From: Kiloniella laminariae DSM 19542
GTDB taxonomy: Bacteria; Pseudomonadota; Alphaproteobacteria; Kiloniellales; Kiloniellaceae
Direction of reading: 5' to 3'
Length of the DNA stretch: 64,000 nt
Assembly: GCF_000374005.1 (NCBI RefSeq)
Contig: NZ_KB893167.1
Span: 62,001-126,000 of the forward strand
Shown here: positions 14,235 through 53,987 of the stretch, in pieces
How positions within the stretch are numbered: the stretch's first letter is position 1
How the letters are laid out: each line of letters starts with the position of its first letter
Notes under the pieces: model-generated
What the model saw: the letters and a program-made list of their open reading frames with translations, nothing else
The model's database searches: none
Told to the model about the DNA's origin: nothing
Made by a program: the position numbers and the translations under genes

Positions 14235-16808
14235 TCAAGAGCTTTCTCCTTCTCTGTTGTCACGGGCTCTGTTGTTTTGGTCTCTGACGTTCAGGCGATG
14301 ACCGTTAACAACGTGGCTGATCGGGGCGTGGTCAAGGCGTTGACGAATCAGCCAGAACAGCAGGCTGAACATCAACAGCAGCAGGCCGATCAGCATTCTG
14401 GTCTCCGCATCGGTTGCCGTGGCGGGCAGGGGGATAGACTTTTTGCCACTGCTCTGGCTTGTCACGCGGGTGGGGCTGGTCGCAATCAGGGAGAGTGCGG
14501 CCTGATCATTTTCGAAGCCCCTTTGTTCGGCTTGACCCGGTTGTTGAGGTAAAGGACGGGTGCCTTGATCCGGGGTGCCCTTTTCCAGCGGGCCAAAGAC
14601 CTTGTCAAAATCCCATCCTGCGGGCAGGTTCAGTGGAACTTCTGTGCTGCCAAGCTCTGCGTCTTGTGGGCGGCTGGGGGTTACGTCAACGGCGACCAGA
14701 CTGGTCAGGCGGCTGATCAGGTGAAAATCCATCGCTGTGGTGGTGATGAGCTGATCCAGCTCTGCGGGATTGTTGCCAAGGAACATCTGACCTTCGTAAT
14801 CGGCGATCTTCTTCCGGGCCCAAAGCTTGTCGATCCCGCTTGAAACCGTGGCCTGTGCCAGTGGCAGACGCACCGACCAGGGCTGATCGTTGAAACGGCC
14901 CGACAGCACCATAAAGTCTTCGGGCTGGCCTACATCAGGCTGGCCTGAAGGGGTGTCCGCTGGGCTGTTGTTCCCCGAAATTTCATCAGAGGGGGGCACT
15001 TTGCGTCTTGCAGCAATCACCAGCGGTTCACCGCTATAGAGATCGGGCAGGGTCGCGGGACTGAGTTCGTAGGTGGCTGAGCTTGCCTTTTTTCCTTCCC
15101 AAGTGAGGGCAAGATCGGTCATCACCGGGTTTTCCAGTTTGGTGAAGAGGGCGGCCATACGCTCGCGCACCTGTTGTTCTGAGCCGATATGGGTAAAGCT
15201 GCCTTTGCCCATTTCCGAAGCCCGGGCCATAAAGTGGCTGTTAGGGGCGGAACCAATGCCGACGGTAAAGATCCGCGAGCGGCCGCGTTGTTTGACGATG
15301 GTATCAAACATTTCCTGTTCGTTGCCGATCGCCCCGTCGGTCAGGAAAACCACCTGCCGCAGGATATCGCTGTTGCTGACATCACCATCCTGAAGGGCGG
15401 CTTTGAGCGCGGGCAGCATTTCGGTGCCGCCGTTGGCTTCGAGGCCAGAGACAAAACGCCGGGCCTGATCAAGGTTTGTCGCAGAGGCATCGACAGCCCC
15501 GTTAAAGAGCACATCATAGGTGTCGTCAAAGCGCACAACGTTAAAACGGTCCTGCGGGGCGAGCCTGTCCAGGGCAAAAAGCAGGCTGTCTTTGGCCTGG
15601 ACCATGGAGGGACCCGCCATGGAGCCGGAATTATCAATGACAAAGATAATCTCGCGCGCAGGGTTGGCAAAGTCTTTGGCTTGCAGATCGACCAGCTTGG
15701 GCGGGGTGATAAAGGCGAGCAGGAAATCGCCCTTGTCTGTGTTCTGACTGAAGAGGGCGGCACGGGGGCTTGCCCCCTTGTCAGCCTGCCAGGTCAGCTC
15801 AAAATCCCGGTCTGCGGGCACGACGTCTTCGCTGAGTTTGATCCGGGTATCGTCAGGGCTGTCGTGATCAATGGTCACCGCGTGAAACGGGCTTCTGATT
15901 TCGCCCAGCGGAAAGCCTGCGGCCAGATGAACGCTCAGGTAAACCGGATTGCTTGGGGCAGAAACCCGGGGATCAAGCACGGGGGCCGTGATTGTGTCGC
16001 GATCGGGCACCGGATCTTTGCCTGTTGTGCTGTTTTGATCGTTTGCAGCCTCATCTGCTGTTTCAACGCTGCCCCACTGGCTTTTGTCGCCATTGTTTGG
16101 GTCGTTGTTAAAAGAGACAGTTTCGACCAAACGGGGTTTGGGATTGTAGCGCGGGGCCACCACCATGGGATAACGCAGCGAGAACTGCCCGTCAGACTGT
16201 TTGACAGTTTCCTGGTATTCGATCTGGACCACGATGATTTCACCGGGGCCGATATTGGCAACCGCATTGGTGAAAAGATTGGGGCGCTGCTGTTCCACCA
16301 GGGCGGTTTTTTTGCCTTCGCGTTTTGCTTCCTCATAGATCTGTCGGGCTTCTTCGCGGGGTTTGATCTGCCCTTCGATAAAGCGTGTACCGATCTGCAT
16401 CTTCAGACTGTCCACAGCGGCCTGTTCGGGCAGGGGAAAGACATATTTGCCCTCGACCCAGCCATTGGTCGGATTGCGAAAGCGCTGGGTGACCTTGGTC
16501 CGGGCAATCGGGCCGTTGATATCAATCTCGACCGAGGTCGCCAGCTGCGGTGCCTCGACCATCAAACCCGGCTCGGTCCCCTGAAGCAGCAACGAGCCAC
16601 GGGTGGATTCCCCCGCTTTCACCACAGCCGTTCCATTACTGGGTGCAACATTGGGGAGAGGGCTATTGGCCCAGCCAACCGAGGGAAAGGCAAAGCTGCT
16701 CGCCAGAGCCAGCGCAGAGAGCCATCTCCGGCTGTTTCGTCTGCAGAATCTGTCAGACAAGGAACGGGATACGAAAAGAAGCGAAGTTTTGCAGCGAGAG
16801 ATACCCAT
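14235..16808 (-). CDS. Marine proteobacterial sortase target protein (VIT and vWA domains)
   Basis: An 857-residue exported protein. It has a long N-region and signal sequence (WLSALALASSFAFPSVGWA), a VIT domain at about residues 80-210 (VSVEIDINGPIARTKVTQRF-like start, NPTNGWVEGKYVFPLPE), a vWA domain at about 385-560 with the MIDAS motif FVIDNSGSMAGPS, and a C-terminal sorting signal. The signal consists of an LPATA pentapeptide-like motif, a hydrophobic helix (MLIGLLLLMFSLLFWLI) and a short basic tail (RQRLDH). VIT/vWA proteins resemble inter-alpha-trypsin inhibitor heavy chains and mediate protein-protein contacts. What it is attached to in a Gram-negative cell is unknown. Confidence 0.94.
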   Translation of the reverse strand: MGISRCKTSLLFVSRSLSDRFCRRNSRRWLSALALASSFAFPSVGWANSPLPNVAPSNGTAVVKAGESTRGSLLLQGTEPGLMVEAPQLATSVEIDINGPIARTKVTQRFRNPTNGWVEGKYVFPLPEQAAVDSLKMQIGTRFIEGQIKPREEARQIYEEAKREGKKTALVEQQRPNLFTNAVANIGPGEIIVVQIEYQETVKQSDGQFSLRYPMVVAPRYNPKPRLVETVSFNNDPNNGDKSQWGSVETADEAANDQNSTTGKDPVPDRDTITAPVLDPRVSAPSNPVYLSVHLAAGFPLGEIRSPFHAVTIDHDSPDDTRIKLSEDVVPADRDFELTWQADKGASPRAALFSQNTDKGDFLLAFITPPKLVDLQAKDFANPAREIIFVIDNSGSMAGPSMVQAKDSLLFALDRLAPQDRFNVVRFDDTYDVLFNGAVDASATNLDQARRFVSGLEANGGTEMLPALKAALQDGDVSNSDILRQVVFLTDGAIGNEQEMFDTIVKQRGRSRIFTVGIGSAPNSHFMARASEMGKGSFTHIGSEQQVRERMAALFTKLENPVMTDLALTWEGKKASSATYELSPATLPDLYSGEPLVIAARRKVPPSDEISGNNSPADTPSGQPDVGQPEDFMVLSGRFNDQPWSVRLPLAQATVSSGIDKLWARKKIADYEGQMFLGNNPAELDQLITTTAMDFHLISRLTSLVAVDVTPSRPQDAELGSTEVPLNLPAGWDFDKVFGPLEKGTPDQGTRPLPQQPGQAEQRGFENDQAALSLIATSPTRVTSQSSGKKSIPLPATATDAETRMLIGLLLLMFSLLFWLIRQRLDHAPISHVVNGHRLNVRDQNNRARDNREGESS

Positions 16809-16860
16809 GACACGGCCCTGTTGGTTTTGAATTTATTTTTTCAACAGGAGGATGTTGGGC

Positions 16861-16916
16861 GCACTTTATGCCCAAACCGAGGTCATTTATGACCAAAAAA
16901 CGGCCATATCAGGGGG
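16861..16916. repeat. Hairpin-bearing repeat, copy A (left border of the small-ORF island)
   Basis: About 55 bases starting GCACTTTATGCCCAAAC and containing the inverted repeat GGTCATTTATGACC. It is imperfectly repeated at 18494-18547. It lies where the GC-richer sortase locus gives way to the AT-rich small ORFs. Confidence 0.55.
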
Positions 16917-16976
16917 AGTTTGTGGGAGCCGCTATTGTCTGTTGTTGGTTATCTCTGCACTAAAACGGTACTTGTC

Positions 16977-17330
16977 TCAGCGTTTTAAATTTTCAAAATC
17001 CAACTTCACCTCAGGTGACGTAAAAACTAAAATAATATCCCGTCCACCAAGCATAGTAACAATCATTTCTACCCTGTTACCTTGGGCCTCTACATGTAAT
17101 ATCATGTCTATGATACCCAAATGAGATTCTAAGGATTGATATACTCCTATACCATACTGCTTACTTCGAGCATCTTTCCAATTACTGATAACAAGCTTAC
17201 AAGGTTTTTCTATAGTCTCATTTTCATAAATATAATCATAGTACATTTCGATTACTTTAGCTTCTGAATCATAAAAAAATGCTTCAACTACATTATCTGC
17301 AAATTCGTATTTCAATAAATCATCAAACAT
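16977..17330 (-). CDS. Hypothetical protein, candidate orphan immunity protein
   Basis: A 117-residue acidic, soluble protein with no signal peptide and no family that I recognise. It alternates predicted beta strands and short helices (VEAFFYDSEAKVIEMYYDYI, LGIIDMILHVEAQGNRVEMI, GRDIILVF), a style common among small immunity proteins of polymorphic toxins. The gene is clearly more AT-rich than its sortase neighbours, which suggests horizontal origin. No toxin gene accompanies it. Function is inferred only from style and context. Confidence 0.6.
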   Translation of the reverse strand: MFDDLLKYEFADNVVEAFFYDSEAKVIEMYYDYIYENETIEKPCKLVISNWKDARSKQYGIGVYQSLESHLGIIDMILHVEAQGNRVEMIVTMLGGRDIILVFTSPEVKLDFENLKR

Positions 17331-17389
17331 TCTCTAGGTCTTTGTTTGGGTGCTATCGTCAGGGAGGATTTTTGCTATTGGAATAAAAA

Positions 17390-17824
17390 ATGTTCAAAAA
17401 AATGATATCAGCTTTGTTTTTGATTTTCCTAGCGGCAGGATCTTTGTTGGTCTGGAAATGTTACTCGGAACAACCAGCCAATATAATCAAATCGGCTGTA
17501 CCAATGTTGGATTTTACTGATCATGAGATACTTTACAGTAATAGAGATAAAGGTGTTTTTGGTGGAACAACAATTTATTTGATAAAAATATCAGATATTG
17601 AGTCTCAGGATATAATAAACAACTGTGAGAATTTGGGATTCACAAAACAAGTATATGACTATAAAGATTTTACTGATGATTTATGGAGTGATTTGAATAA
17701 CACGAAAGAAAGCCTCGGCGTAGGTATGTTCCCTGCCTGTTTCCATTCATCGAGAACAAAGTTAGACCGGAGCTTTATAATTATTGATAGAGGATATATT
17801 TATTTTCAATCCTCTTATCTCTAA
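17390..17824 (+). CDS. Hypothetical exported or membrane-anchored protein
   Basis: A 144-residue protein with a clear N-terminal hydrophobic segment (MFKKMISALFLIFLAAGSLL), which is either a signal peptide or an anchor. The rest is soluble, with three cysteines (in WKCYSE, NNCENLGF and PACFHSS). No family recognised. It is AT-rich and stands divergently from the 117-residue gene, inside the island. Confidence 0.55.
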   Translation: MFKKMISALFLIFLAAGSLLVWKCYSEQPANIIKSAVPMLDFTDHEILYSNRDKGVFGGTTIYLIKISDIESQDIINNCENLGFTKQVYDYKDFTDDLWSDLNNTKESLGVGMFPACFHSSRTKLDRSFIIIDRGYIYFQSSYL

Positions 17825-17964
17825 CGGCATTTATATAAAATATAAATGATCTCAAATGTATTCGAAGTGCATGTTAGGAAAATGGACACTTCTATTAACG
17901 TGTTTTTGGCGGCTTGTTGGTCTGACGGGTGCTTTGATGTCGACAAGTGAACAGTTTAAAAAGG

Positions 17965-18171
17965 CTAAATGATTTCTATTATTGATTTAACCTCTTTAAG
18001 TAAATTCATCACCTCGGCCTGAGTCGCACCCATACGTGGATGGTAATCAAAATCATCTAGTCCATCAAAAGTTTCATTCAAAGCGTTGTTGATAATTATT
18101 AACTCTTCAAGAGAAACATTTATGATTATTCTACCATTATCTATCTTATCTAATTCCACAGTAATACCCAT
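17965..18171 (-). CDS. Small hypothetical protein, candidate immunity protein
   Basis: A 68-residue acidic protein with SLEELIIINNALNETFDGLD in its centre and GATQAEVMNLLKEVKSIIE at the end, giving a strand-helix-helix layout. Similar small INNALNE-type proteins are familiar to me from toxin-immunity neighbourhoods, but I cannot name a family. On the same strand a short open remnant ending GKGYFDDLK-stop lies directly upstream, which would be the expected place for a toxin C-terminus. AT-rich. Confidence 0.6.
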   Translation of the reverse strand: MGITVELDKIDNGRIIINVSLEELIIINNALNETFDGLDDFDYHPRMGATQAEVMNLLKEVKSIIEII

Positions 18172-18493
18172 TATTTAAGATCATCAAAATACCCTTTACC
18201 TCTGGTTGGTTATCTATTTTTTATCAAAATATCTTTTTGAATATGGCCAATTTGTTCAATCCGACTTTAGGGATGAACACAAAAGAAATCATCATTTATT
18301 TGGAGATTTATATCTCTGGCGTTTGAAATTTCGTTTTAAATACAGAGAAGTTCACGCTAAATACTATTATTATTTTGCAAAATCTATGTTTGTATTTTTT
18401 CGCATCTCTGTTTTTGGTTTTATTGTTATCCCCTCGATTAAGAAAATATCATATTGATGATTTTGATAGAGGAAATGTGGACACGATTATGAT

Positions 18494-18547
18494 GCGCTTT
18501 ATGCCCAAACGAAGTTATTTATAACTAATAAAGCGGCAATCCTGGGG
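18494..18547. repeat. Hairpin-bearing repeat, copy B
   Basis: It matches copy A at 16861 in GC-CTTTATGCCCAAAC and the following 35 bases with about 75-80% identity. The internal hairpin is AGTTATTTATAACT. The stem differs from copy A (GGTCATTTATGACC) by paired changes that keep every base pair. Confidence 0.5.
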
Positions 18548-18628
18548 CGGTCCAGAGGCCGGAAAAATTGTTGAACTAAGGTTAGGTGATCGTCAGCCAA
18601 TTACCGTTCCTGTACACGTCTTCAACAC

Positions 18629-18898
18629 CTAATCAAAGTCATACTTCCTCACAATACCTTTCGAGTTCACCATAATTTCAATTAGCATATCAAGATCTAG
18701 CCGGAAGGGTTCATCTCTTGGAAACATCAAAACCTGAAGTACCCCTCGGTTATCGACAACGATATGAAATATTTCCTCCCCATTTTGATCCATTATCTCC
18801 AGGGCTGTACCTTCATATTCAATGTCCCCGGTTGTTAGGCAAGAATCGTATTTTTCAATGAGTAGAGAGCTCTCGATTATATCTTTATACTTTGTCAT
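18629..18898 (-). CDS. Hypothetical protein, candidate immunity protein
   Basis: An 89-residue protein: IEYEGTALEIMDQNGEEIFH near residue 26, then VVDNRGVLQVLMF and a C-terminal helix (LDLDMLIEIMVNSKGIV). The YEGTALE...GEEI.H.VVD pattern is one I associate with a small conserved bacterial family near polymorphic toxins; this is recollection, not a search result. A short toxin-tip-like open remnant (18935-19044) lies directly upstream on the same strand, about 36 bases away. Confidence 0.65.
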   Translation of the reverse strand: MTKYKDIIESSLLIEKYDSCLTTGDIEYEGTALEIMDQNGEEIFHIVVDNRGVLQVLMFPRDEPFRLDLDMLIEIMVNSKGIVRKYDFD

Positions 18899-18934
18899 AA
18901 AACTCTTCCCCAGACTTTATCTGTACCTTCAATT

Positions 18935-19044
18935 CAGTCATGATCCCCACCCAATAGCGAAGTAAACCCCATTACATTATATGCCTGATAACCAATCTTA
19001 TTCGGAAAAATTAAAGCAGAACGCCCAGTCCAACTGAAGTGATC
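18935..19044 (-). pseudogene. Remnant resembling the C-terminal tip of a larger protein
   Basis: A 36-codon open stretch without a start codon reads DHFSWTGRSALIFPNKI..., continues GYQAYNVMGFTSLLGG and stops as DHD. It has protein-like composition and is followed by the 89-residue candidate immunity gene, the normal toxin-then-immunity order. The upstream part is lost before the transposase remnant. No family recognised. This is inference from arrangement and composition. Confidence 0.4.
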
Positions 19045-19124
19045 CTAGAACTTGGCCCGAAAGTATTTGAGTGATTACAATTGGTTATGGTTTTATTGGT
19101 TTTCAACAACAAATGGATCTCACC

Positions 19125-19323
19125 ATGGTTCGGACTGCAACCACTCGGCGAGATTATGATCGGCCTAATTGCGGTTGTGCAAGTGATTTGACTGATCCGG
19201 AATGGGATTTGATAAAGGGCTTCATGCCGTTTCCCTATTTCAGGGTCGTACTCGGACAACGGATTTACGTGAGGTGATGAATGGTATTCTTTATATTGCA
19301 ACAACTGGATGCCAATGGGTGAT
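19125..19323 (+). pseudogene. Truncated, frameshifted IS5-type transposase remnant
   Basis: The N-terminal domain of an IS5-family transposase is recognisable in two frames. The first frame reads CASDLTDPEWDLIKGFMP after an ATG at 19125, and after a frameshift near 19225 the second reads GRTRTTDLREVMNGILYIAT then TGCQW. Sequence similarity stops about 19323, exactly where the duplicated DUF1989 copy begins. The catalytic region is missing and no terminal inverted repeats are visible, so it is dead. Confidence 0.85.
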
Positions 19324-19630
19324 ACTTGCCCGCCTGAGAGTTTCAGTCACAGTCTGGAGGATAAAAAATCAACTCCAGGACCCGAAATGAAAACCATCCA
19401 CGATCATCCCACCCCAAAAGATGCCGACGCCCGCAAGGCGGTCGCGTCCGTGATCTGTTATCCCAATACGACCTTGCCTGCCTTTGATACTGCGTTTTTT
19501 GATCGCGCGCGCGGGGATGGAACTGGTGGCCGAGACCTATATCCCGCCGCGGGATGCACGTTGTTTTGAGGTGTCTGCCGGGCACTTTGACCACATTGTC
19601 TCGATGCAGGTAGGAGATGTTTCCGACAAG
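19324..19630 (+). pseudogene. Broken duplicate of the 5' part of the DUF1989 gene
   Basis: From about 19324 the sequence repeats 23220-23520 (leader plus first 75 codons of the DUF1989 gene) with roughly 93-95% identity. The copy of the start codon is at 19387. A two-base loss in the GC-alternating run near 19503 shifts the frame, so reading ends at 19569. Similarity then fades after a further small deletion near 19605. It is a non-functional fragment. Confidence 0.88.
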
Positions 19631-19674
19631 ATGCCCGATTAGTCTTTACTCAAAATCCAGCTCAGAGATTAAGC

Positions 19675-21063
19675 CTACTGGCTTGGCAAGATAATGGTAA
19701 CCTGAAAGCCGTTATGGTTTTCAAGTTTGAGTTGACCATTGTGAATGCGAAGCACTGCGGCAACCAATGACAGTCCAAGGCCGTTACCCGGGAGATTCCT
19801 GCTTGATTCAACCCGATAAAAGCGTTCGAGAACGTTGGATTGTTCGTTTTCCGGTATTCCAGACCCGGCATCATGAATAACGATTTCTGCGCCCGTTTCG
19901 ACAGCGGAGAGGGTAATTGTGATTGTGCTGTTGGCCGGGCCGTATTTGACGGCATTGTCGATCAGGTTGGTAAAACATTGGGTGATCAGGTCACGATCCC
20001 CTAGGATCTGGCCCGCAACAGACTGTCCACTTAGGGTATCCTTCAGGATAATGTTTTGCCCCTTGTCTTCGGCAAGGGGTTCATAGATTTCAATCGCGTC
20101 TTCGATCAGCGATCCCAGAGGCATGGGGGCAAAGTTTGTCTCAAGTTCTCCGGTTTCCAGTCTTGTGATGCTCAATAGAGCGGAAAAGGTAACGAGCAGC
20201 TGGTCGACTTCGGCGATTGCCGCCTCAACCAGTTTTCTGTTCTCGTCATTTTCAGTCAGGGGAACCAGGCGTTCAAGACGGCCATGCAATCTGGTCAAAG
20301 GGGTTCTTAGATCATGTGCGATGTTGTCGGTCACATGACGGATGCCATCCATCAGGGTTTCGATACGGTCAAGCATGGAGTTCAGGGTATGGCCCATGAC
20401 GTCGATTTCATCGCTGGTCCGGGAGACGGGGATGCGTTTGGAAAAGCGCCCGAGCATGATTTCAGAACAGGTCGCACTGATGAGGGAGAGACGCTTTTTC
20501 AGGCCGCGATGAAGGATAACGCCGGCAATCGTCCCGCCACAGAGGCTCAAAAGCAGGGCGCCCAGAAAAACAATAAAAACCTGATCTTCGAGCTCTTCTT
20601 CCTTGGTCGTATCCAGGCCGAGCAATAGGTGATACTGCCCGCCGAGAGGCCTGCTTAAAAAACGGTACTCGAGAGGGGTTGTATGATCATCTTCAAGCTC
20701 GGTAAAACCTGCGGTTTTGGGCACCTTTTCAGGCCAGGCGGGGATGTTTCCCGAGAGCTTTCTATAAGTTTTATCGGTCAAGAGGTAGATCTTTGACGCT
20801 GAAAGCTCTTGCCTTGCCCGGCGATCAATCAGGGTCTGGAGCAAGGTTATTCCCCCCAGATCATAGACTTCGTTCAGATCATTGATTTTGGTCTGGAGGC
20901 GGCTGTCGATTTCCTTTTCCATGAAGTGTTCCGAAGTTTCTGAAACGATGCCCTCAAAAATGAAATTGATCAGAAAGAAGACCCCGCCAATACTCAGGGC
21001 GAATTTGAGGGAAAGGGAAAGACGGGGAAGCTTAATCTTCACGGATACAATACCCCGCGCCAC
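19675..21063 (-). CDS. Two-component sensor histidine kinase
   Basis: A 462-residue inner-membrane kinase. It has TM1 at about residues 18-38 (FALSIGGVFFLINFIFEGI), a periplasmic domain, TM2 at about 165-187 (VFIVFLGALLLSLCGGTIAG), a HAMP domain, the H-box DNIAHDLRTPLTRLHGRLER, the N-box CFTNLIDNAVKYGP, and G-boxes DAGSGIPENE and GNGLGLSLVAAV. The start is GTG at 21063 or a later GTG at 21042; both overlap the end of the regulator gene. The periplasmic signal is unknown. Together with the response regulator it lies divergent to a secreted beta-helix gene. Confidence 0.93.
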   Translation of the reverse strand: MARGIVSVKIKLPRLSLSLKFALSIGGVFFLINFIFEGIVSETSEHFMEKEIDSRLQTKINDLNEVYDLGGITLLQTLIDRRARQELSASKIYLLTDKTYRKLSGNIPAWPEKVPKTAGFTELEDDHTTPLEYRFLSRPLGGQYHLLLGLDTTKEEELEDQVFIVFLGALLLSLCGGTIAGVILHRGLKKRLSLISATCSEIMLGRFSKRIPVSRTSDEIDVMGHTLNSMLDRIETLMDGIRHVTDNIAHDLRTPLTRLHGRLERLVPLTENDENRKLVEAAIAEVDQLLVTFSALLSITRLETGELETNFAPMPLGSLIEDAIEIYEPLAEDKGQNIILKDTLSGQSVAGQILGDRDLITQCFTNLIDNAVKYGPANSTITITLSAVETGAEIVIHDAGSGIPENEQSNVLERFYRVESSRNLPGNGLGLSLVAAVLRIHNGQLKLENHNGFQVTIILPSQ

Positions 21064-21706
21064 GAATTGTATGAAGGAGTTCGACGTTAAAGCCTTTGTC
21101 GATTTTATTGCGCAGTCTGCTCATATGAACATCAATAACATTGGTCTGAGGAGCAAAGTTATAATCCCAGACCTGTTCAAGCAGGATCGTTCGCGTGACG
21201 ACCTGTCCCGCATGTCGCATCAGGAATTCCAGTAATTTGTATTCTTTGGGCTTGAGGTCGATTGTTTTACCCGCGCGGGTGGCCTTGCGCGATAGCAGGT
21301 CAATGCGCAGGTCCCCGACCGTCAGTTCGGTTTCCCCGCCAGAGGGCAGGGTTCTTTTCAGCAGAACCTGTACCCGGGCAACCAACTCGGCGACAGAAAA
21401 GGGTTTGACCATATAGTCATCCCCCCCGGAATGCAGGCCGTCAATTCTGTGACGGACTTCACCCAATGCGGAAAGTAACAGAACCGGGGTGGTGATTTCG
21501 GTCGCCCGAAGCGTCCGCAAGAGCGACAGCCCGTCCTTGCCGGGAAGCATGCGATCGAGAATGATAATGTCGTAATTTTCGTTCGCGGCCATATAGAGAC
21601 CTTCGCGGCCATCGTGAACGCTGTCGGTAACAAAGCCGGATTCAGCCAGAGCCTGGGAAACAAAATCAGCGACTTCGAGGTCATCTTCGATTATCAGCGC
21701 TCGCAT
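21032..21706 (-). CDS. OmpR/PhoB-family response regulator
   Basis: A 224-residue regulator with an N-terminal receiver domain (phospho-acceptor Asp in IIILDRMLPGKDG, conserved Lys in DYMVKPFSVAEL) and a C-terminal winged-helix domain (LTVGDLRIDL, KEYKLLEFLMRHAGQVVTR, NVIDVHMSRLRNKID). It is the first gene of the pair; its stop lies inside the kinase gene, so they are co-translated. Likely targets include its own promoter and the divergent beta-helix gene. Confidence 0.95.
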   Translation of the reverse strand: MRALIIEDDLEVADFVSQALAESGFVTDSVHDGREGLYMAANENYDIIILDRMLPGKDGLSLLRTLRATEITTPVLLLSALGEVRHRIDGLHSGGDDYMVKPFSVAELVARVQVLLKRTLPSGGETELTVGDLRIDLLSRKATRAGKTIDLKPKEYKLLEFLMRHAGQVVTRTILLEQVWDYNFAPQTNVIDVHMSRLRNKIDKGFNVELLHTIRGAGYCIRED

Positions 21707-21960
21707 TTCTTAAGGTCATTTCATAGCTGTCTGAGAGGGAATCCGGCCAGTAAGTCCAGACGGGTAAGTCCTCCTGATCGGTAAATCCGGACAAGAACCG
21801 CCTGGGTCCGTTTGTTATGCGCGGATAATAACACGGGGAAAAGATGAATAAACAACATGAACAAAAATTTAGAATTCAACCACATTGGGGATAGGTAGAA
21901 TGCCTTAACTTCTCGCTCGAGATCAGGTTTCAGCAGATCAAGAGGGATGGTTAAGCGGTT

Positions 21961-23112
21961 ATGATTAAAAAGCGGAAACTCAATAGACTGTTCACATTGT
22001 CGATTTTCTCGGTTTCCATTCTTTCCGTCGCAAATATATCGGGGGTGATCCCGGGCCCCGTTTCAGTGGAAAAGGTTATTGAAACACTGCGTGATGTGGG
22101 AACCTCAAGCTATCTAAACTTGAGCAAGCAGCCTTTTCTGGTGGGGGAGCTGTCGAGCAATTCCTTGTTTTTTGCCCGGAAACACCCGGACATCTTTCAA
22201 GATAACCAGGGTGTCCTTGAGATAAAACCCGGGGTACATGACATTGATTTCCCTATTAATCTTGATGGATCTTTGCTGATCCAGCCCGGAACAACCCTTA
22301 ATTTTTCCGCCAACAGCTACCTTCTGGTCAGGGGGGCGTTGACGGCTCTGGGGTCATCAGATGCGCCTGTCGTTCTGCGGGGGCAGAAAGATCAGTTGTG
22401 GAAAGGAATATATGTTCATGATGCAGGTAATCTGTCTGAACTGGATCATGTGATTATTTCCGATACCACAGCGTTCGAAGACGGGTATCTGAAGTTAACC
22501 GGAGGGGTGACGTTTTATAAATCGGCCCTGAAAATCACAAACAGTGACTTTAAAAACTCCGTGGCTGAGGACGGGTTGAATATCATCAACTCTGAATTCT
22601 CGCTTGCGCACACGCGATTTGAAAACATGCGTTCGGACGCGCTGGACAGTGATTTCTCGCAGGGAAGTATCAACAACGGCGTGTTCCATACCATCGGTGG
22701 GGACGCGATTGATCTTTCGGGAACCAGAAGCTGGATCCAAAGCCCGCAGATTACTTCTGTGCACGACAAGGCGATTTCTGCGGGCGAAAACTCGACAGTG
22801 GATGTGATCGGCGGGTCTGTCAGATCTGTGGGGGTCGCGGCGGCGTCCAAAGACGGCAGTCTCGTGAAAATCAGCGAGACACGTATAGACGATGTCACCT
22901 TGTTTGGACTGATGACCTATATCAAGAAATCATCTTATAGCTTTCCCACCCTGGAAGCCCATAACCTTTTCTGGGGAGAAGGGAGCGCCGGACCTGCTGC
23001 GAACAACTGGATCCGGCAGGCAGGAACCGTTCTGACCGTAGATGGTCACAATGTTGTTGAGGAGACTGTTGATGTCAAGGCGCTCTATAAAGGGGCCGTG
23101 ATGTCCAAATAA
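21961..23112 (+). CDS. Secreted parallel beta-helix repeat protein
   Basis: A 383-residue protein with an N-terminal signal or anchor (RLFTLSIFSVSILSVANISG). From about residue 85 there are repeated short-strand rungs of right-handed beta-helix type (VLEIKPGVHDIDFPINLDGS, LKITNSDFKNSVAEDGLNII, ALDSDFSQGSINNGVFHTIG). Such folds bind or cleave polysaccharides or act as surface proteins; no catalytic signature of pectate lyases or glycosidases is evident. It stands divergently from the two-component system across a 254-base spacer, so control by that system is plausible. Confidence 0.85.
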   Translation: MIKKRKLNRLFTLSIFSVSILSVANISGVIPGPVSVEKVIETLRDVGTSSYLNLSKQPFLVGELSSNSLFFARKHPDIFQDNQGVLEIKPGVHDIDFPINLDGSLLIQPGTTLNFSANSYLLVRGALTALGSSDAPVVLRGQKDQLWKGIYVHDAGNLSELDHVIISDTTAFEDGYLKLTGGVTFYKSALKITNSDFKNSVAEDGLNIINSEFSLAHTRFENMRSDALDSDFSQGSINNGVFHTIGGDAIDLSGTRSWIQSPQITSVHDKAISAGENSTVDVIGGSVRSVGVAAASKDGSLVKISETRIDDVTLFGLMTYIKKSSYSFPTLEAHNLFWGEGSAGPAANNWIRQAGTVLTVDGHNVVEETVDVKALYKGAVMSK

Positions 23113-23282
23113 TGCCCTGATGGTGAGCAGCTATCGGGACTTTGAGTGTTTTCTTGTGGGGGAGGTCTTGTGGTTGGCAGGGTGAGCAAACCAAACCCCG
23201 GTTTGGGGCAAATCCGTTTCTTGCCCGCGCTGAGAGTTTCCGTCACAGTCTGGAGGATAAAAAATCAACTCCAGGACCCGAA

Positions 23283-24146
23283 ATGAAAACCATCCACGAT
23301 CATCCCGCCCCAAAAGACGCCGACGCCCGCAAGGCGGTCGCGCCCGTGATCTGTTATCCCAATACGACCTTGCCTGCCTTTGATGCTGCGTTTTTTGATC
23401 GCGCGCGCGCGGGGATGGAACTGGTGGCCGAGACCTATATCCCGCCGCGGGATGCGCGTTGTTTTGAGGTACCTGCCGGGCATTTTGTCCGCATTGTCTC
23501 GATTGAAGGGCCGCAGGTCGGTGATCTGAATTTCTGGAACGCGCACGATCTGACCGAGCGGTTTTTCAGTGGCAAGACCCGGGCGCTGCACGGTACCCAT
23601 ATCAGTACCGGGGATCGGCTCTGGAGTACCTTGCCACATCTGCGTCCGCTGGCGACGGTGACCCGTGACACGCTGGACTGGTACGGCTTTGATGAATTTG
23701 GTGGCGGGGTACACGATGTGATCGGTACACGCTGTGACCCCTATACCAATGCGGTGCTGCAGGGGACGGATTATCACTATTGCTGTCATTCCAATCTGAC
23801 CCGGGCGCTGGCGGCACATTGCAGCCTGCCGATGGATGAGGCGGAACTGCTGGTCCATGATGTGCTCAATGTCTTTATGTGTACCGGCTTTACCAAAGAT
23901 ACCCACCAGTACTTTATGAAAGCCAGTCCGGTGCGCCCGGGGGATTATCTGGAGTTCTTTGCCGAAACCGATCTGCTGGGCGGCATGTCGGCCTGTCCGG
24001 GCGGGGATTGCGGATCATCGCATTCGGGCGATGCCGCGGCCTGTTATCCCATGAAAGTTGAGGTCTACAAGCCGCAGGCCGGGACGCTGGAGGGCTGGAG
24101 CCCGTCGCGGCCTTCTCCCTATTCCGGGGGGCATGGCGTGGCCTAA
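23283..24146 (+). CDS. DUF1989 family protein (urea carboxylase-associated type)
   Basis: A 287-residue protein of the DUF1989 family, often encoded beside urea/guanidine carboxylases or amino-acid catabolic genes. It shows YIPPRDARCFEVPAGHFVRI, the conserved GPQVGDLNFWNAHD near residue 81, the cysteine-rich segment HYCCHSNL, and DYLEFFAETDLLGGMSACPG near the end. The frame extends upstream to 23142, but family alignment and the duplicated copy both point to the ATG at 23283. No urea carboxylase gene is nearby. The leader and first 75 codons are duplicated at 19324-19630. Confidence 0.88.
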   Translation: MKTIHDHPAPKDADARKAVAPVICYPNTTLPAFDAAFFDRARAGMELVAETYIPPRDARCFEVPAGHFVRIVSIEGPQVGDLNFWNAHDLTERFFSGKTRALHGTHISTGDRLWSTLPHLRPLATVTRDTLDWYGFDEFGGGVHDVIGTRCDPYTNAVLQGTDYHYCCHSNLTRALAAHCSLPMDEAELLVHDVLNVFMCTGFTKDTHQYFMKASPVRPGDYLEFFAETDLLGGMSACPGGDCGSSHSGDAAACYPMKVEVYKPQAGTLEGWSPSRPSPYSGGHGVA

Positions 24147-24252
24147 TATGGCCAGGTTTTTGCCAAAGGACAGAAGGGATCAAGAAAAGGGCGCTGGTTC
24201 TGTTGATCCCGTTTGTTCTGCGGGAGTGACGGGGTAGCGGAATTTCCATAAA

Positions 24253-24290
24253 AATGGCGGCTCACCATGTGGGCCGCCATTCGTTGTTTG
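24253..24290 (+). terminator. Terminator-like hairpin after the DUF1989 gene
   Basis: A 13-bp stem with one G-U pair, AATGGCGGCTCAC / GTGGGCCGCCATT (24253-24265 with 24269-24281), is followed by CGTTGTTTG. The T tail is weak, but position and stability fit a terminator. Confidence 0.7.
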
Positions 24291-24382
24291 GGCGTGTTTA
24301 TGTCGGTTGTGGCATGACGCCCGGATTTTTCAACCCTGCCAGTGTGTGGTCTGGTTTTGTCTTGTTTGCCTTTATTGAGGTC

Positions 24383-24952
24383 CTATGAGGCCAAAAGTTC
24401 TTTTGTTGTGACAACCTGACAGAATTCGTTATGCAGATCAGACAAGGACATTGCATGGATCATGTCAGCAGTATAGACGGTGCCGTCTGGCCCCACACGG
24501 TCAAAGGTTGCACAGGCATCACCGACCAGACGCACATCGTAATCCATGTTACCCGCCATTCGGACCGTGGTTGAAACGCAATGATTGGTTGTCAGCCCGG
24601 AGATCACCAGTTGCGGGGCCTGAGCCCGACGTAAAAATCCATCGAGATCGCTGCCGACAAAGGCGCTGTTCTGGCGCTTTACAAAAACCGCTTCATCGCC
24701 AAACGGCGTTAGTTCGGCGATGATTTCGCCGCCGGGTTTTTCCTGTCGCAACAGGCTGTCAGGGTTGAGGCTGTGATGCAGGGCATGGGCGATGGGCCAG
24801 CCTTTGGTTCGCCAGTGGTTCAGCAGCGCGGCAGCTTGCTGTTCGGCGTTGGGGTTGTTGCGGTTTCCACCCCAATAGTCCCAATCCTTAAAGCCGTTTT
24901 GCCAATCGATGAGCAGGAGGACTGGCGGGTTCGTGTTTGGCATAGCTGGCAT
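24383..24952 (-). CDS. Cysteine hydrolase, isochorismatase family
   Basis: A 189-residue enzyme: catalytic Asp in LLLIDWQNGFKDWDYWGG, Lys in AVFVKRQNSAFVGSDL, and Cys in SGLTTNHCVSTTVRMAGN. This HCVSTT form, with WQNGF, is that of nicotinamidase-like or ureidoacrylate-type hydrolases; the substrate cannot be fixed. A start at the fourth codon is also possible. It faces the DUF1989 gene convergently. Confidence 0.88.
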   Translation of the reverse strand: MPAMPNTNPPVLLLIDWQNGFKDWDYWGGNRNNPNAEQQAAALLNHWRTKGWPIAHALHHSLNPDSLLRQEKPGGEIIAELTPFGDEAVFVKRQNSAFVGSDLDGFLRRAQAPQLVISGLTTNHCVSTTVRMAGNMDYDVRLVGDACATFDRVGPDGTVYTADMIHAMSLSDLHNEFCQVVTTKELLAS

Positions 24953-25155
24953 ATCGGGGTTTCCTTAAGGTTATGAACGAAAGCAGGGGATCGACAAGTC
25001 TTGTGGGCGGTTGCCGGGTTGGGGAAAACGTTTGGTTGCAAGGCTCATCTTGTTGATTATGATCGGGGAAATAAGACCTTTGCTCAATATGGCGATCGCG
25101 CCATTGTTTTGCGTAAAGATGTCAGATCCACCAGGACAAGGTTCGATTCCGCATA

Positions 25156-25596
25156 ATGGCCAAAAATCAGCTTGATGACCGCGATCAAAAAATACTGTCG
25201 ATACTGTCAGCGGATGCCCGAACGACGATCAGTGAATTGGCCCGTAACATCAGCCTGTCGCCGACGGCGGTGCGTCAGCGGATTGCCCGGCTGGAACGCG
25301 ATGGTGTGATCGAGGGCTACACCATTCGCACAGCCCGGCTGGAAACTGAAACTGCGATCAAGGCCGTGGTCATGCTGACCCTGACAGGGGCCTTTTGCAG
25401 CAAGATCAAGGCGGCCTTTGGCCATCTGCCAGAGATCCGAAAGTTCTGGTCAACAACAGGGGAGCTGGACGCCACCATGATCTTGCAGGTGCCAACGATC
25501 GAACGTCTGCAGGAAGTGACCGAGCAATTCAGTGCGCATGAACTGGTCAAGCGTGTCCAGACCCATGTGATTATCGCAACCCACATCGATCGCTGA
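25156..25596 (+). CDS. Lrp/AsnC-family transcriptional regulator
   Basis: A 146-residue regulator with an N-terminal helix-turn-helix (LDDRDQKILSILSADARTTI then SELARNISLSPTAVRQRIAR) and a C-terminal ligand-binding RAM-like domain (VVMLTLTGAFCSKIKAAF, RKFWSTTGELDATMILQV). Members sense amino acids or related small molecules. It is divergent from the cysteine hydrolase gene, which may be its target. Confidence 0.92.
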   Translation: MAKNQLDDRDQKILSILSADARTTISELARNISLSPTAVRQRIARLERDGVIEGYTIRTARLETETAIKAVVMLTLTGAFCSKIKAAFGHLPEIRKFWSTTGELDATMILQVPTIERLQEVTEQFSAHELVKRVQTHVIIATHIDR

Positions 25597-25683
25597 ACAG
25601 GGTACTGGTTGGGGAAGGCGGAAGGGAGGTTCTGGATTGCTTGAATTTTACCAGACAAGGGGATATAACAAGGAACAGAGATC

Positions 25684-25708
25684 AGTCCGACCTGTGTCGG
25701 ATTGTTTT
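25684..25708 (+). terminator. Terminator-like hairpin after the Lrp-family gene
   Basis: A stem TCCGAC / GTCGGA (25686-25691 with 25696-25701) with a CTGT loop is followed by TTGTTTTC. It lies immediately before the riboswitch, so it would insulate the riboswitch from the upstream gene. Confidence 0.6.
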
Positions 25709-25710
25709 CA

Positions 25711-25783
25711 CCGCTTCGTATAACCCCGATAATATGGTTCGGGGGTCTCTACCAGGATCCGATAAATTCTGATTACGAAGAGC
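25711..25783 (+). ncRNA. Purine riboswitch aptamer, adenine-specific type
   Basis: The three-way junction is readable. P1 is CTTCGTA (25714-25720) paired with TACGAAG (25774-25780). P2 is CCCCGA / TCGGGG with loop AATATGG. P3 is CAGGAT / ATTCTG with loop CCGATAA. The junction strand TCTCTACC (25746-25753) and both loop consensus sequences are kept. The specificity base, equivalent to position 74, is T at 25773 in GATTACG; a T there marks adenine-binding aptamers, while guanine ones have C. It lies 112 bases upstream of a purine deaminase gene, like the Vibrio vulnificus add riboswitch. Confidence 0.93.
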
Positions 25784-25856
25784 AAAGCCCGTTAAGTGCT
25801 TTTCTCTTTGTATGGCTGAATGGTTTATGATTATTCCGGGTCCGGCAGACTGAAAA

Positions 25857-25888
25857 GCTCTTGATTTCGATCAACACAAGTTAAGAGC
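25857..25888 (+). promoter_or_regulatory. Ribosome-site-sequestering hairpin (riboswitch expression platform)
   Basis: GCTCTT (25857-25862) can pair with AAGAGC (25883-25888), which contains the purine-rich ribosome-binding region six bases before the ATG at 25895. GATTT next to the stem extends it with wobble pairs. The same AAGAGC sequence also occurs at 25778-25783, overlapping the 3' side of aptamer stem P1, so it is a competing partner. This suggests translational control; whether adenine switches it on or off cannot be decided by eye. Confidence 0.6.
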
Positions 25889-25894
25889 AATTCC

Positions 25895-26920
25895 ATGAAT
25901 ACCTTTTCAACACAGAAATTTATCGAAAAACTTCCCAAGGTTGAACTGCATCTGCATCTCGAAGGCTCGCTGGAGCCCGAGCTGATGTTTGAGCTGGCAA
26001 AACGCAACGGGGTCGAGATCCCCTTTTCCTCGCCGGATGAGGTTCGCGCGGCCTATGATTTTCACAATCTGCAATCCTTCCTCGATATCTATTATCAAGG
26101 GGCCAATGTCCTGATCAACGAGCAGGATTTCTTTGACCTCACCTGGGCCTATCTGCTGCGCTGTCAGGCCGATAATGTGGTGCATGTCGAGGTGTTTTTT
26201 GACCCGCAGACCCATACGGACCGGGGCATTGCCTTTGATGTTGTGATCGGTGGCATTCACCGCGCGCTGGAGCAGGGGCGGCGCGAGCTGGGCATCACCA
26301 GCCAGCTGATCATGTGTTTCCTGCGCCATCTGGATGAGACGGCGGCACTGGCCACGCTGGAACAGGCGCTGCCGCATCGGGACAAGATCATCGGGGTCGG
26401 GCTGGATTCATCGGAAGTCGGGCATCCACCGGAAAAATTCCAACGGGTTTTTGCCCGGGCGCTCGAGCTTGGTTTCCTGACCGTGGCGCATGCCGGTGAA
26501 GAAGGCCCGGCCAGTAACATTCACGGTGCGCTGGAACTGCTGGGAGTAACGCGGATTGATCACGGGGTGCGCTGTGTCGATGATGCCGAACTGGTGCAAA
26601 AACTGATTGCCGATCGCACACCGCTGACGGTCTGTCCGCTGTCCAACACCCGGCTCAAGGTGTTTGAGCGGATGGAACAGCACAATATTGTCGCGCTGTT
26701 GCGGCAGGGGCTTTGTGTGACCATAAATTCCGATGATCCGGCCTATTTCGGCGGCTATATGAACGCCAATTTTCTTGCTGTTGCCGAGGCACACCCCATG
26801 AGCCACGCCGAGATCGCCCGCTTTACCCTGAACGCGATTGAAGCCAGTTTTATCTCGGCAGAAGAAAAAGCCCGGCTGGCAGGAATAACGAATGATTATC
26901 TCAAGAAACACGCTGCCTGA
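25895..26920 (+). CDS. add: Adenosine/adenine deaminase family protein, probably adenine deaminase
   Basis: A 341-residue zinc metalloenzyme of purine salvage that converts adenine (or adenosine) to hypoxanthine (or inosine). Zinc ligands and catalytic residues are visible: [17 protein letters not shown] near residue 14, [12 protein letters not shown] near 200, DHGVRC near 225, and [20 protein letters not shown] near 280. The [10 protein letters not shown] form is the one found in the eukaryotic Aah1-like and bacterial adenine deaminases rather than classic adenosine deaminases. The adenine-type riboswitch in the leader supports adenine as a related metabolite. Gene symbol given for the family; substrate specificity needs assay. 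Confidence 0.9.
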
Positions 26921-26948
26921 GGCAGGACAGGTCTGAGCAGTAAAAAAT

Positions 26949-26982
26949 AGGGGCCCAAGATTTTGTCTCGGGCCTCTTGTTC
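26949..26982 (-). terminator. Terminator between the deaminase gene and parE
   Basis: A stem AGGGGCCC-AGA / TCT-GGGCCTCT with one A-C mismatch. On the minus strand it is followed by TATTTTTTAC, so it serves parE, and it may act in both directions. Confidence 0.75.
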
Positions 26983-27013
26983 TTGTCTGTACTTTTTGAA
27001 CCTCTGAAAGAGG

Positions 27014-53804: not shown

Positions 53805-53881
53805 GGGGGTGTAGCTCAGTTGGTTAGAGCGCTGGCCTGTCACGCCAGAGGTCGCGAGTTCAAGTCTCGTCATCCTCGCCA
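53805..53881 (+). tRNA. tRNA-Asp (GUC), first copy
   Basis: A 77-base cloverleaf: acceptor GGGGGTG / CATCCTC with two G-U pairs, anticodon arm CTGGCCTGTCACGCCAG reading GTC, T-loop TTCAAGT, discriminator G, encoded CCA. Confidence 0.96.
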
Positions 53882-53910: not shown

Positions 53911-53987
53911 GGGGGTGTAGCTCAGTTGGTTAGAGCGCTGGCCTGTCACGCCAGAGGTCGCGAGTTCAAGTCTCGTCATCCTCGCCA
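53911..53987 (+). tRNA. tRNA-Asp (GUC), second copy
   Basis: Identical in sequence to the copy at 53805-53881, with a 29-base unique spacer between them. A recent tandem duplication or gene conversion keeps them the same. Confidence 0.96.

Follow-up and report, generated by a model that had tools for sequence, protein, structure and literature searches.

A 64,000-nucleotide stretch of the Kiloniella laminariae DSM 19542 genome (the window) contains a confirmed purine riboswitch of family RF00167, and the best overall explanation, which we consider probable, is that it is an adenine riboswitch exerting translational ON control over a purine deaminase by way of a relay of hairpins, in a unit that was acquired horizontally. 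The fuller proposal is that the leader is a portable switch whose relay consists of mutually exclusive hairpins (P1 with H1, H1 with H2, H2 with H3), distinct from the one in Vibrio vulnificus, common to marine Gammaproteobacteria, moved intact with its gene and under selection in an alphaproteobacterium; for this claim the chances seem to us evenly balanced.

A purine riboswitch ahead of a deaminase gene

A sequence-only reading had placed a purine riboswitch at 25711-25783. A cmscan search of the whole window gave six Rfam matches above gathering scores, of which five are tRNAs and the sixth is a Purine riboswitch. That match (RF00167, 25696-25795, + strand) covers the complete model, 1-102, and scores 71.1 bits (gathering score 37, E 1.4e-10). 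A score below the family threshold would, by the sequence-only reading's own terms, have refuted it; the score is about twice the cut-off, and the span fits the proposed one. In the draft genome as a whole (4.44 Mb, 38 contigs) the window element is the sole RF00167 match at E <= 0.001. A separate observation is that the window carries tandem tRNA-Asp (GTC) genes, 53805-53881 and 53911-53987, 29 bases apart and alike letter for letter in the Rfam alignments. The features around the riboswitch are:

25641..25669, + strand: candidate sigma-70-like promoter, TTGAAT-17-TATAAC, read from the sequence
25714..25780, + strand: aptamer of apparent adenine type, P1-P2-P3 core (RF00167, 71.1 bits; 66/67 identical in L005)
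25895..26920, + strand: deaminase gene, adenosine/adenine deaminase family, acquired copy, 341 aa (PF00962, NF006850, PDB group)
26952..26974, no strand assigned: terminator-like hairpin, with the deaminase gene and parE converging on it (scan, reported on the - strand)

The three helices, both conserved loops and the junction strand described earlier all align in the RF00167 match. P1 pairs 25714-25720 with 25774-25780 (7 pairs); P2 pairs 25724-25729 with 25739-25744 (6 pairs, with a U-U at 25730/25738 on top); and P3 pairs 25753-25758 with 25766-25771 (6 pairs). The loops read AAUAUGG and CCGAUAA, the junction strand is GUCUCUAC, and the conserved J1/2, J2/3, L2 and L3 letters align along with the helices of the three-way junction. 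In the cmscan alignment only the outermost model pair of P1 is non-standard, and one model P3 pair is absent. At position 74 of purine riboswitches, U denotes the adenine type and C the guanine type. The window has A at 25772 and U at 25773, which we take, in numbering and in meaning, to be the equivalents of positions 73 and 74; the alignment puts U where the sequence-only reading had seen a position-74 T and adenine specificity. From these letters we infer that the ligand is adenine, and binding of adenine is predicted.

The gene that follows the riboswitch had been called a purine deaminase gene, and family and structure matches agree: the 341-aa product of 25895-26920 scores 314.4 bits against PF00962, 547.4 bits against the NCBIfam equivalog NF006850 and 416.8 bits against the PDB group 3ou8/3pan/3pao/3pbm. 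The reading frame is open and full length, and it starts 114 nt after P1. Although the database name of the family is adenosine deaminase, the 3ou8 group is, we assume, PA0148, an adenine deaminase that prefers adenine. By family profile and closest solved relatives the window protein is PA0148-like, and its putative substrate is adenine.

In an alignment, TTGAAC-17-TATAAC sits at the place of the candidate promoter in K. laminariae G21630-S1; the list from a stricter promoter scan does not include the candidate at 25641..25669. Another promoter-like match, overlapping the aptamer, was dismissed as chance. Because parE is convergent and a terminator-like hairpin lies between the two genes, the transcript probably consists of the deaminase alone.

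Related loci came from a scan of genome contigs, and the best 80 of 579 deaminase loci were kept. RF00167 matches above threshold lie just upstream in 16 of the 80, one of them Kiloniella, and the window brings the set of riboswitch leaders to 17. A73/U74 is present in all 17.

Leader hairpins and predicted switching

Between P1 and the start codon, three hairpins are predicted, with coordinates counted from dot-bracket strings:

25774..25812, + strand: H1, mutually exclusive with P1 (25774-25782 with 25804-25812, 25784-25788 with 25798-25802; apo fold)
25791..25865, + strand: H2, mutually exclusive with H1 and H3 (25791-25811 with 25845-25865, interrupted; downstream-part fold and P1-forced fold)
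25857..25888, + strand: H3, sequestering hairpin (25857-25867 with 25878-25888), covering the Shine-Dalgarno AAGAG at 25883-25887

H1 is predicted to use 25774-25782, a segment that includes the P1 3' strand, as would a platform that competes with P1. In the proposed mechanism, when adenine is absent the P1 3' strand would pair into H1; with H1 formed, the anti-Shine-Dalgarno strand would be left free, H3 would form and AAGAG would be hidden. When adenine is present, P1 would keep its own strand and the released 3' strand of H1 would pair downstream as H2. Formation of H2 would consume the anti-Shine-Dalgarno strand and open the ribosome site (ON), and abundant adenine would then be deaminated to hypoxanthine.

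Each leader's own strands were scored as a duplex against dinucleotide shuffles (p <= 0.05) in the 17 leaders, which are related and hence not independent. The H1 duplex was better than shuffles in 16/17, the exception being L014, which is without H1, and the H2 duplex in 15/17, with L012 and L029 as exceptions. H3 had a shuffle p of 0.025 in the window and fell below 0.05 in 7/17 leaders, near-duplicates among them. When strands were exchanged between species, a foreign partner often did no worse than the native one in H1 as well as in H2, which means that much of both helices is sequence conservation rather than covariation. H1 was also aligned in 15 of the 17 leaders (13 distinct), L014 and L033 being left out for insertions. 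In these 15 rows H1 pairs in 87.9% of the alignment cells, and slid versions pair in 35-64%. The H1 covariation score was 0.140 vs 0.099 shuffled, with 0/500 shuffles as high, in rows whose relatedness inflates such scores; weaker measures gave both-side changes matched by 20/500 shuffles and further pair types matched by 67/500. Inner H1 and H2 positions change together, in pairs picked by a duplex program and so biased towards pairing. Computation shows that H1 and H2 exist as competing predicted helices; that adenine is the ON signal, and that H2 in turn acts on H3, is how we would read the modelled folds.

Folds that included the 5' tail made long-range pairs that broke P3 or trapped the Shine-Dalgarno, and the fold test was therefore redone from P1 on. 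In the window fold, the P1-forced state is 1.8 kcal/mol costlier than the H1 state without ligand, a modelled balance that ligand binding could tip. With P1 forced, the unpaired value of the window's Shine-Dalgarno goes from 0.21 to 0.35 in the fold from P1 on, a small opening; with a longer 5' leader it goes from 0.21 to 0.23, and the value for a region including the start codon drops from 0.30 to 0.27. Among the 17 leaders, forcing P1 raised Shine-Dalgarno access in 13, left it level in one and lowered it in three, and most of the rises were small.

An adenine riboswitch that turns translation ON, and that arrived by the same transfer, might free its ribosome site otherwise, for example during transcription or by a different helix. 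The small predicted opening would be consistent with this, as would the persistence of H3 in the best P1-forced folds of L005 (the other Kiloniella), L007 and L008, and the fact that H3 beats shuffles in 7/17 leaders only. We nevertheless think it unlikely: H2 beats shuffles in 15/17 leaders and has strands in common with H1 and with H3, and these strands are 45/46 and 32/32 identical in two species while the loop drifts.

A transcriptional platform, in which P1 leaves a short hairpin at 25784-25802 followed by UUCUCUUUGU as a weak terminator and adenine turns expression OFF, strikes us as improbable. In its favour, the compared leaders are rich in U on the 3' side of H1, and a short inner hairpin stays formed alongside P1 in several best folds (such as L006, L007, L031). 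Its stem, however, has 5-6 pairs and is followed by no uninterrupted U tract, a terminator scan of the leader listed no transcription terminator, and H2 and H3 would be left unexplained. The available text of one study describes a tendency of Proteobacteria towards translational control (PMC10907184). Shut-off of an adenine-degrading enzyme by adenine would, moreover, make little sense.

Conservation between two Kiloniella species

Aligned with each other, the two Kiloniella species agree in 66/67 columns of the aptamer, in 32/32 of the H1 tail and in 45/46 of the H2-3'/H3 strands. The H2 loop drifts (25/39 identical), the upstream region has 85/139 identical columns, and the first 66 coding columns have 48 identical. 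Nothing points more strongly to use of the whole switch in Kiloniella than this conservation of aptamer and switching strands while loop and flanks drift, and on this evidence riboswitch and gene appear still to be under selection there. If the switch had instead arrived with the gene and no longer worked in Kiloniella, a decaying remnant might be expected in acquired DNA, in a genus with the riboswitch in 2/9 genomes and in a genome that already has another deaminase of the same family. With aptamer and switching strands nearly identical in the two species, and with a full-length deaminase reading frame, such decay is very unlikely.

Origin of the riboswitch-deaminase unit

Among the best 80 of the 579 loci, those nearest to the window deaminase outside the genus are from Amphritea, Photobacterium and a Vibrio, at 77% identity. 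A maximum-likelihood tree was built from 110 of 111 deaminases, L086 being left out as the same gene as L005. Both acquired Kiloniella copies fall in a 39-row clade with support 100/96, and the record titles assign its remaining 37 rows to the Gammaproteobacteria. The clade contains all 17 riboswitch-led rows, together with 22 rows that have no riboswitch above threshold. The tree does not resolve the branching inside the clade, so a donor lineage is not singled out. The aptamer nearest to the window's outside Kiloniella is that of Amphritea (62/67 identical). In nine Vibrio-group deaminases of the clade (L015, L018-L021, L025, L027, L030, L036), neither a purine riboswitch above threshold nor a core motif was found in the 400 bases upstream; these may be cases in which the switch was lost and the gene kept.

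The genome of the window has a second deaminase (G000:C34:218869-219834), which is alphaproteobacterial and 57% identical to the window copy. It groups with 28 rows from other genomes of the order, in a 29-row group apart from the 39-row clade. A copy of 56-58% identity is found in 8/9 Kiloniella genomes and is missing in the least complete one. The window's genome also has a third, distant homologue (34% identity).

The unit lies at the parE end of a segment that sister genomes lack:

16809..27013, no strand assigned: segment of about 10 kb, absent in six sister Kiloniella, with the riboswitch-deaminase unit at its parE end (locus comparison; borders approximate)

In all six sister loci compared, the segment is missing and parE lies about 200 bp from a gene of about 760 aa, whose window orthologue is at 14235-16808; the ninth Kiloniella genome, G045, gave a partial parE match alone and was left out of the comparison. 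The gap between parE and that orthologue is about 10 kb in the window and about 12 kb in K. laminariae G21630-S1. Within the segment is an AT-rich stretch at 17-19 kb (GC 0.33-0.36). The rest, 16809-25596, holds genes for a two-component pair, named from its sequence, and for a DUF1989 protein, an isochorismatase-family hydrolase and an AsnC-type regulator, named by family match. A search for relatives of the AsnC-type regulator in viral contigs found none. In the flanks fetched for other organisms (<=3 kb), the deaminase genes had none of the AsnC, isochorismatase and DUF1989 neighbours, so the riboswitch and the deaminase alone appear to travel together.

Horizontal transfer is supported by the tree placement, by the second, alphaproteobacterial copy and by the absence of the segment in the six sisters. 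Switch and gene would have moved together, and the unit of aptamer, expression platform and gene would have been acquired by an ancestor of the two Kiloniella species; we infer a marine gammaproteobacterium as donor. The transfer was probably not very recent, since at third codon positions the deaminase gene (GC 0.645) comes near to parE (0.67).

Without transfer, the element would have to be either an ancestral alphaproteobacterial riboswitch lost nearly everywhere or a contaminant of the assembly, which we regard as extremely improbable. One other above-threshold element in the class, in genome G165, might speak for ancestry; that element, however, is of the guanine type (C74), stands before a purL-like gene and is not an orthologue. 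The deaminase groups with Gammaproteobacteria at 100/96, with the other genomic copy separate. The unit, moreover, is found in two assemblies, inside contigs of 278 kb and 273 kb, next to a Kiloniella parE. Where the sequence-only reading had left a choice between horizontal transfer and an overlooked distribution, the tree, the second copy and the empty site favour transfer, and the low counts reported below (2/61, 3/385 and 2/385) give, at the sensitivity of those searches, no support to a wide distribution that had been overlooked.

Distribution of the riboswitch

The sequence-only reading had considered a purine riboswitch unusual in this lineage and had proposed a covariance search of related alphaproteobacterial genomes. 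In that search, 2 of 61 genomes from the host's order had an RF00167 match; both belong to Kiloniella, of which nine genomes were covered. A first draw from the class gave matches in 3/385 genomes, own genome included, two of them above cut-off, and a second draw with another centre, whose genomes were mostly shared with the first, gave 2/385, one above cut-off; each draw thus had one match below cut-off. A draw from the phylum gave 11/398, own included, with 9 of the 11 in one family, to which Vibrio seems to belong because a locus is shared with a named Vibrio record, and a draw from the class of genome G598 gave 1/369, G598 itself. In searches over more than 40 genomes a limited number of candidates was scored per genome under stricter filters, and weak elements could escape these counts. 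Within that sensitivity, the low counts indicate a real scarcity in the class, not an element that had just escaped notice, which agrees with the earlier view of an unusual occurrence.

The sole other above-cut-off element in both class draws is the one in G165 (L003), which has C at the position-74 equivalent. This guanine-type purine riboswitch (L003 1501-1598, G165:C7:59286-59383; 58.6 bits) lies between a divergent purH and the purL-like gene; its AT-rich genome of 2 Mb is assigned to the Alphaproteobacteria. L004 was rejected as a riboswitch, as its 35.7 bits are below cut-off; it is absent from the list at E <= 0.01. In genomes of family f209 (L144, L146, L147, L150, L151, L152) we noted purine elements of 48-57 bits with C at the position-74 equivalent, apparently of the guanine type; those of L146 and L151 are upstream of a gene that by look is permease-like. 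The open literature covered on purine riboswitches and their distribution contained no report of the Kiloniella case; subscription papers and Rfam or RefSeq annotation, outside that scope, may list the element.

Comparison with known systems

In the proteobacterium V. vulnificus, the add riboswitch has an adenine-type aptamer (U74) and is followed by a purine deaminase gene. The Kiloniella leader likewise has a U74 aptamer ahead of a deaminase gene and a P1 3' strand that would switch. For add, the available text of PMC5847336 describes translational ON control with the P1 3' strand as the switching strand, in which nts 76-81 join a P4 domain whose own pairing takes in the Shine-Dalgarno and the AUG. 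In Kiloniella, by contrast, 114 nt separate P1 from the AUG, and the predicted partner of the P1 strand is an intermediate strand, 25804-25812, 70 nt upstream of the Shine-Dalgarno, so the platform is predicted not to be of the add type and the signal would run via H2 to H3. The likeness to add drawn by the sequence-only reading thus extends to the pairing with a deaminase gene and stops at the predicted expression platform, where the P1 strand exchanges with an intermediate strand.

A closer likeness is offered by 15 gammaproteobacterial riboswitch-led loci (within L006-L035) from Amphritea, Photobacterium, Colwellia, Moritella, Psychromonas, Parendozoicomonas, Aliivibrio and Vibrio. They have the same aptamer and an orthologous gene (71-77% identity, among the best 80 of 579), and in the shuffle test H1 is found in 14/15 and H2 in 13/15. 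They differ from Kiloniella in host class and in the helix at the ribosome site, H3, which differs in sequence and is weak in many. In Shewanella, the available text of PMC3223726 reports a purine riboswitch that controls an adenosine deaminase and a purine transporter. Control of a deaminase is common to that regulon and the Kiloniella case; the Shewanella regulon is gammaproteobacterial and includes the purine transporter too. In pbuE of Bacillus subtilis, which encodes an efflux pump, an adenine aptamer is followed by a competing hairpin that takes the P1 3' strand, and this hairpin is a transcription terminator. Kiloniella shares the adenine aptamer and the predicted hairpin competing for the P1 3' strand; unlike pbuE, its leader has no listed terminator.

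Purine riboswitches are described as sporadic in Proteobacteria, and horizontal transfer has been suggested, in the available text of PMC2258182 and PMC3766115. The Kiloniella case shows together a donor clade, a homologue of the host lineage, an empty site in sisters and conserved regulatory strands, and would be consistent with the idea that a switch made of RNA alone can cross classes without a host factor. In sum, a known riboswitch family appears to have reached an unusual host by horizontal transfer, with a platform that is possibly distinct; the relay, if real, would be a second proteobacterial design beside the much-studied add switch of V. vulnificus.
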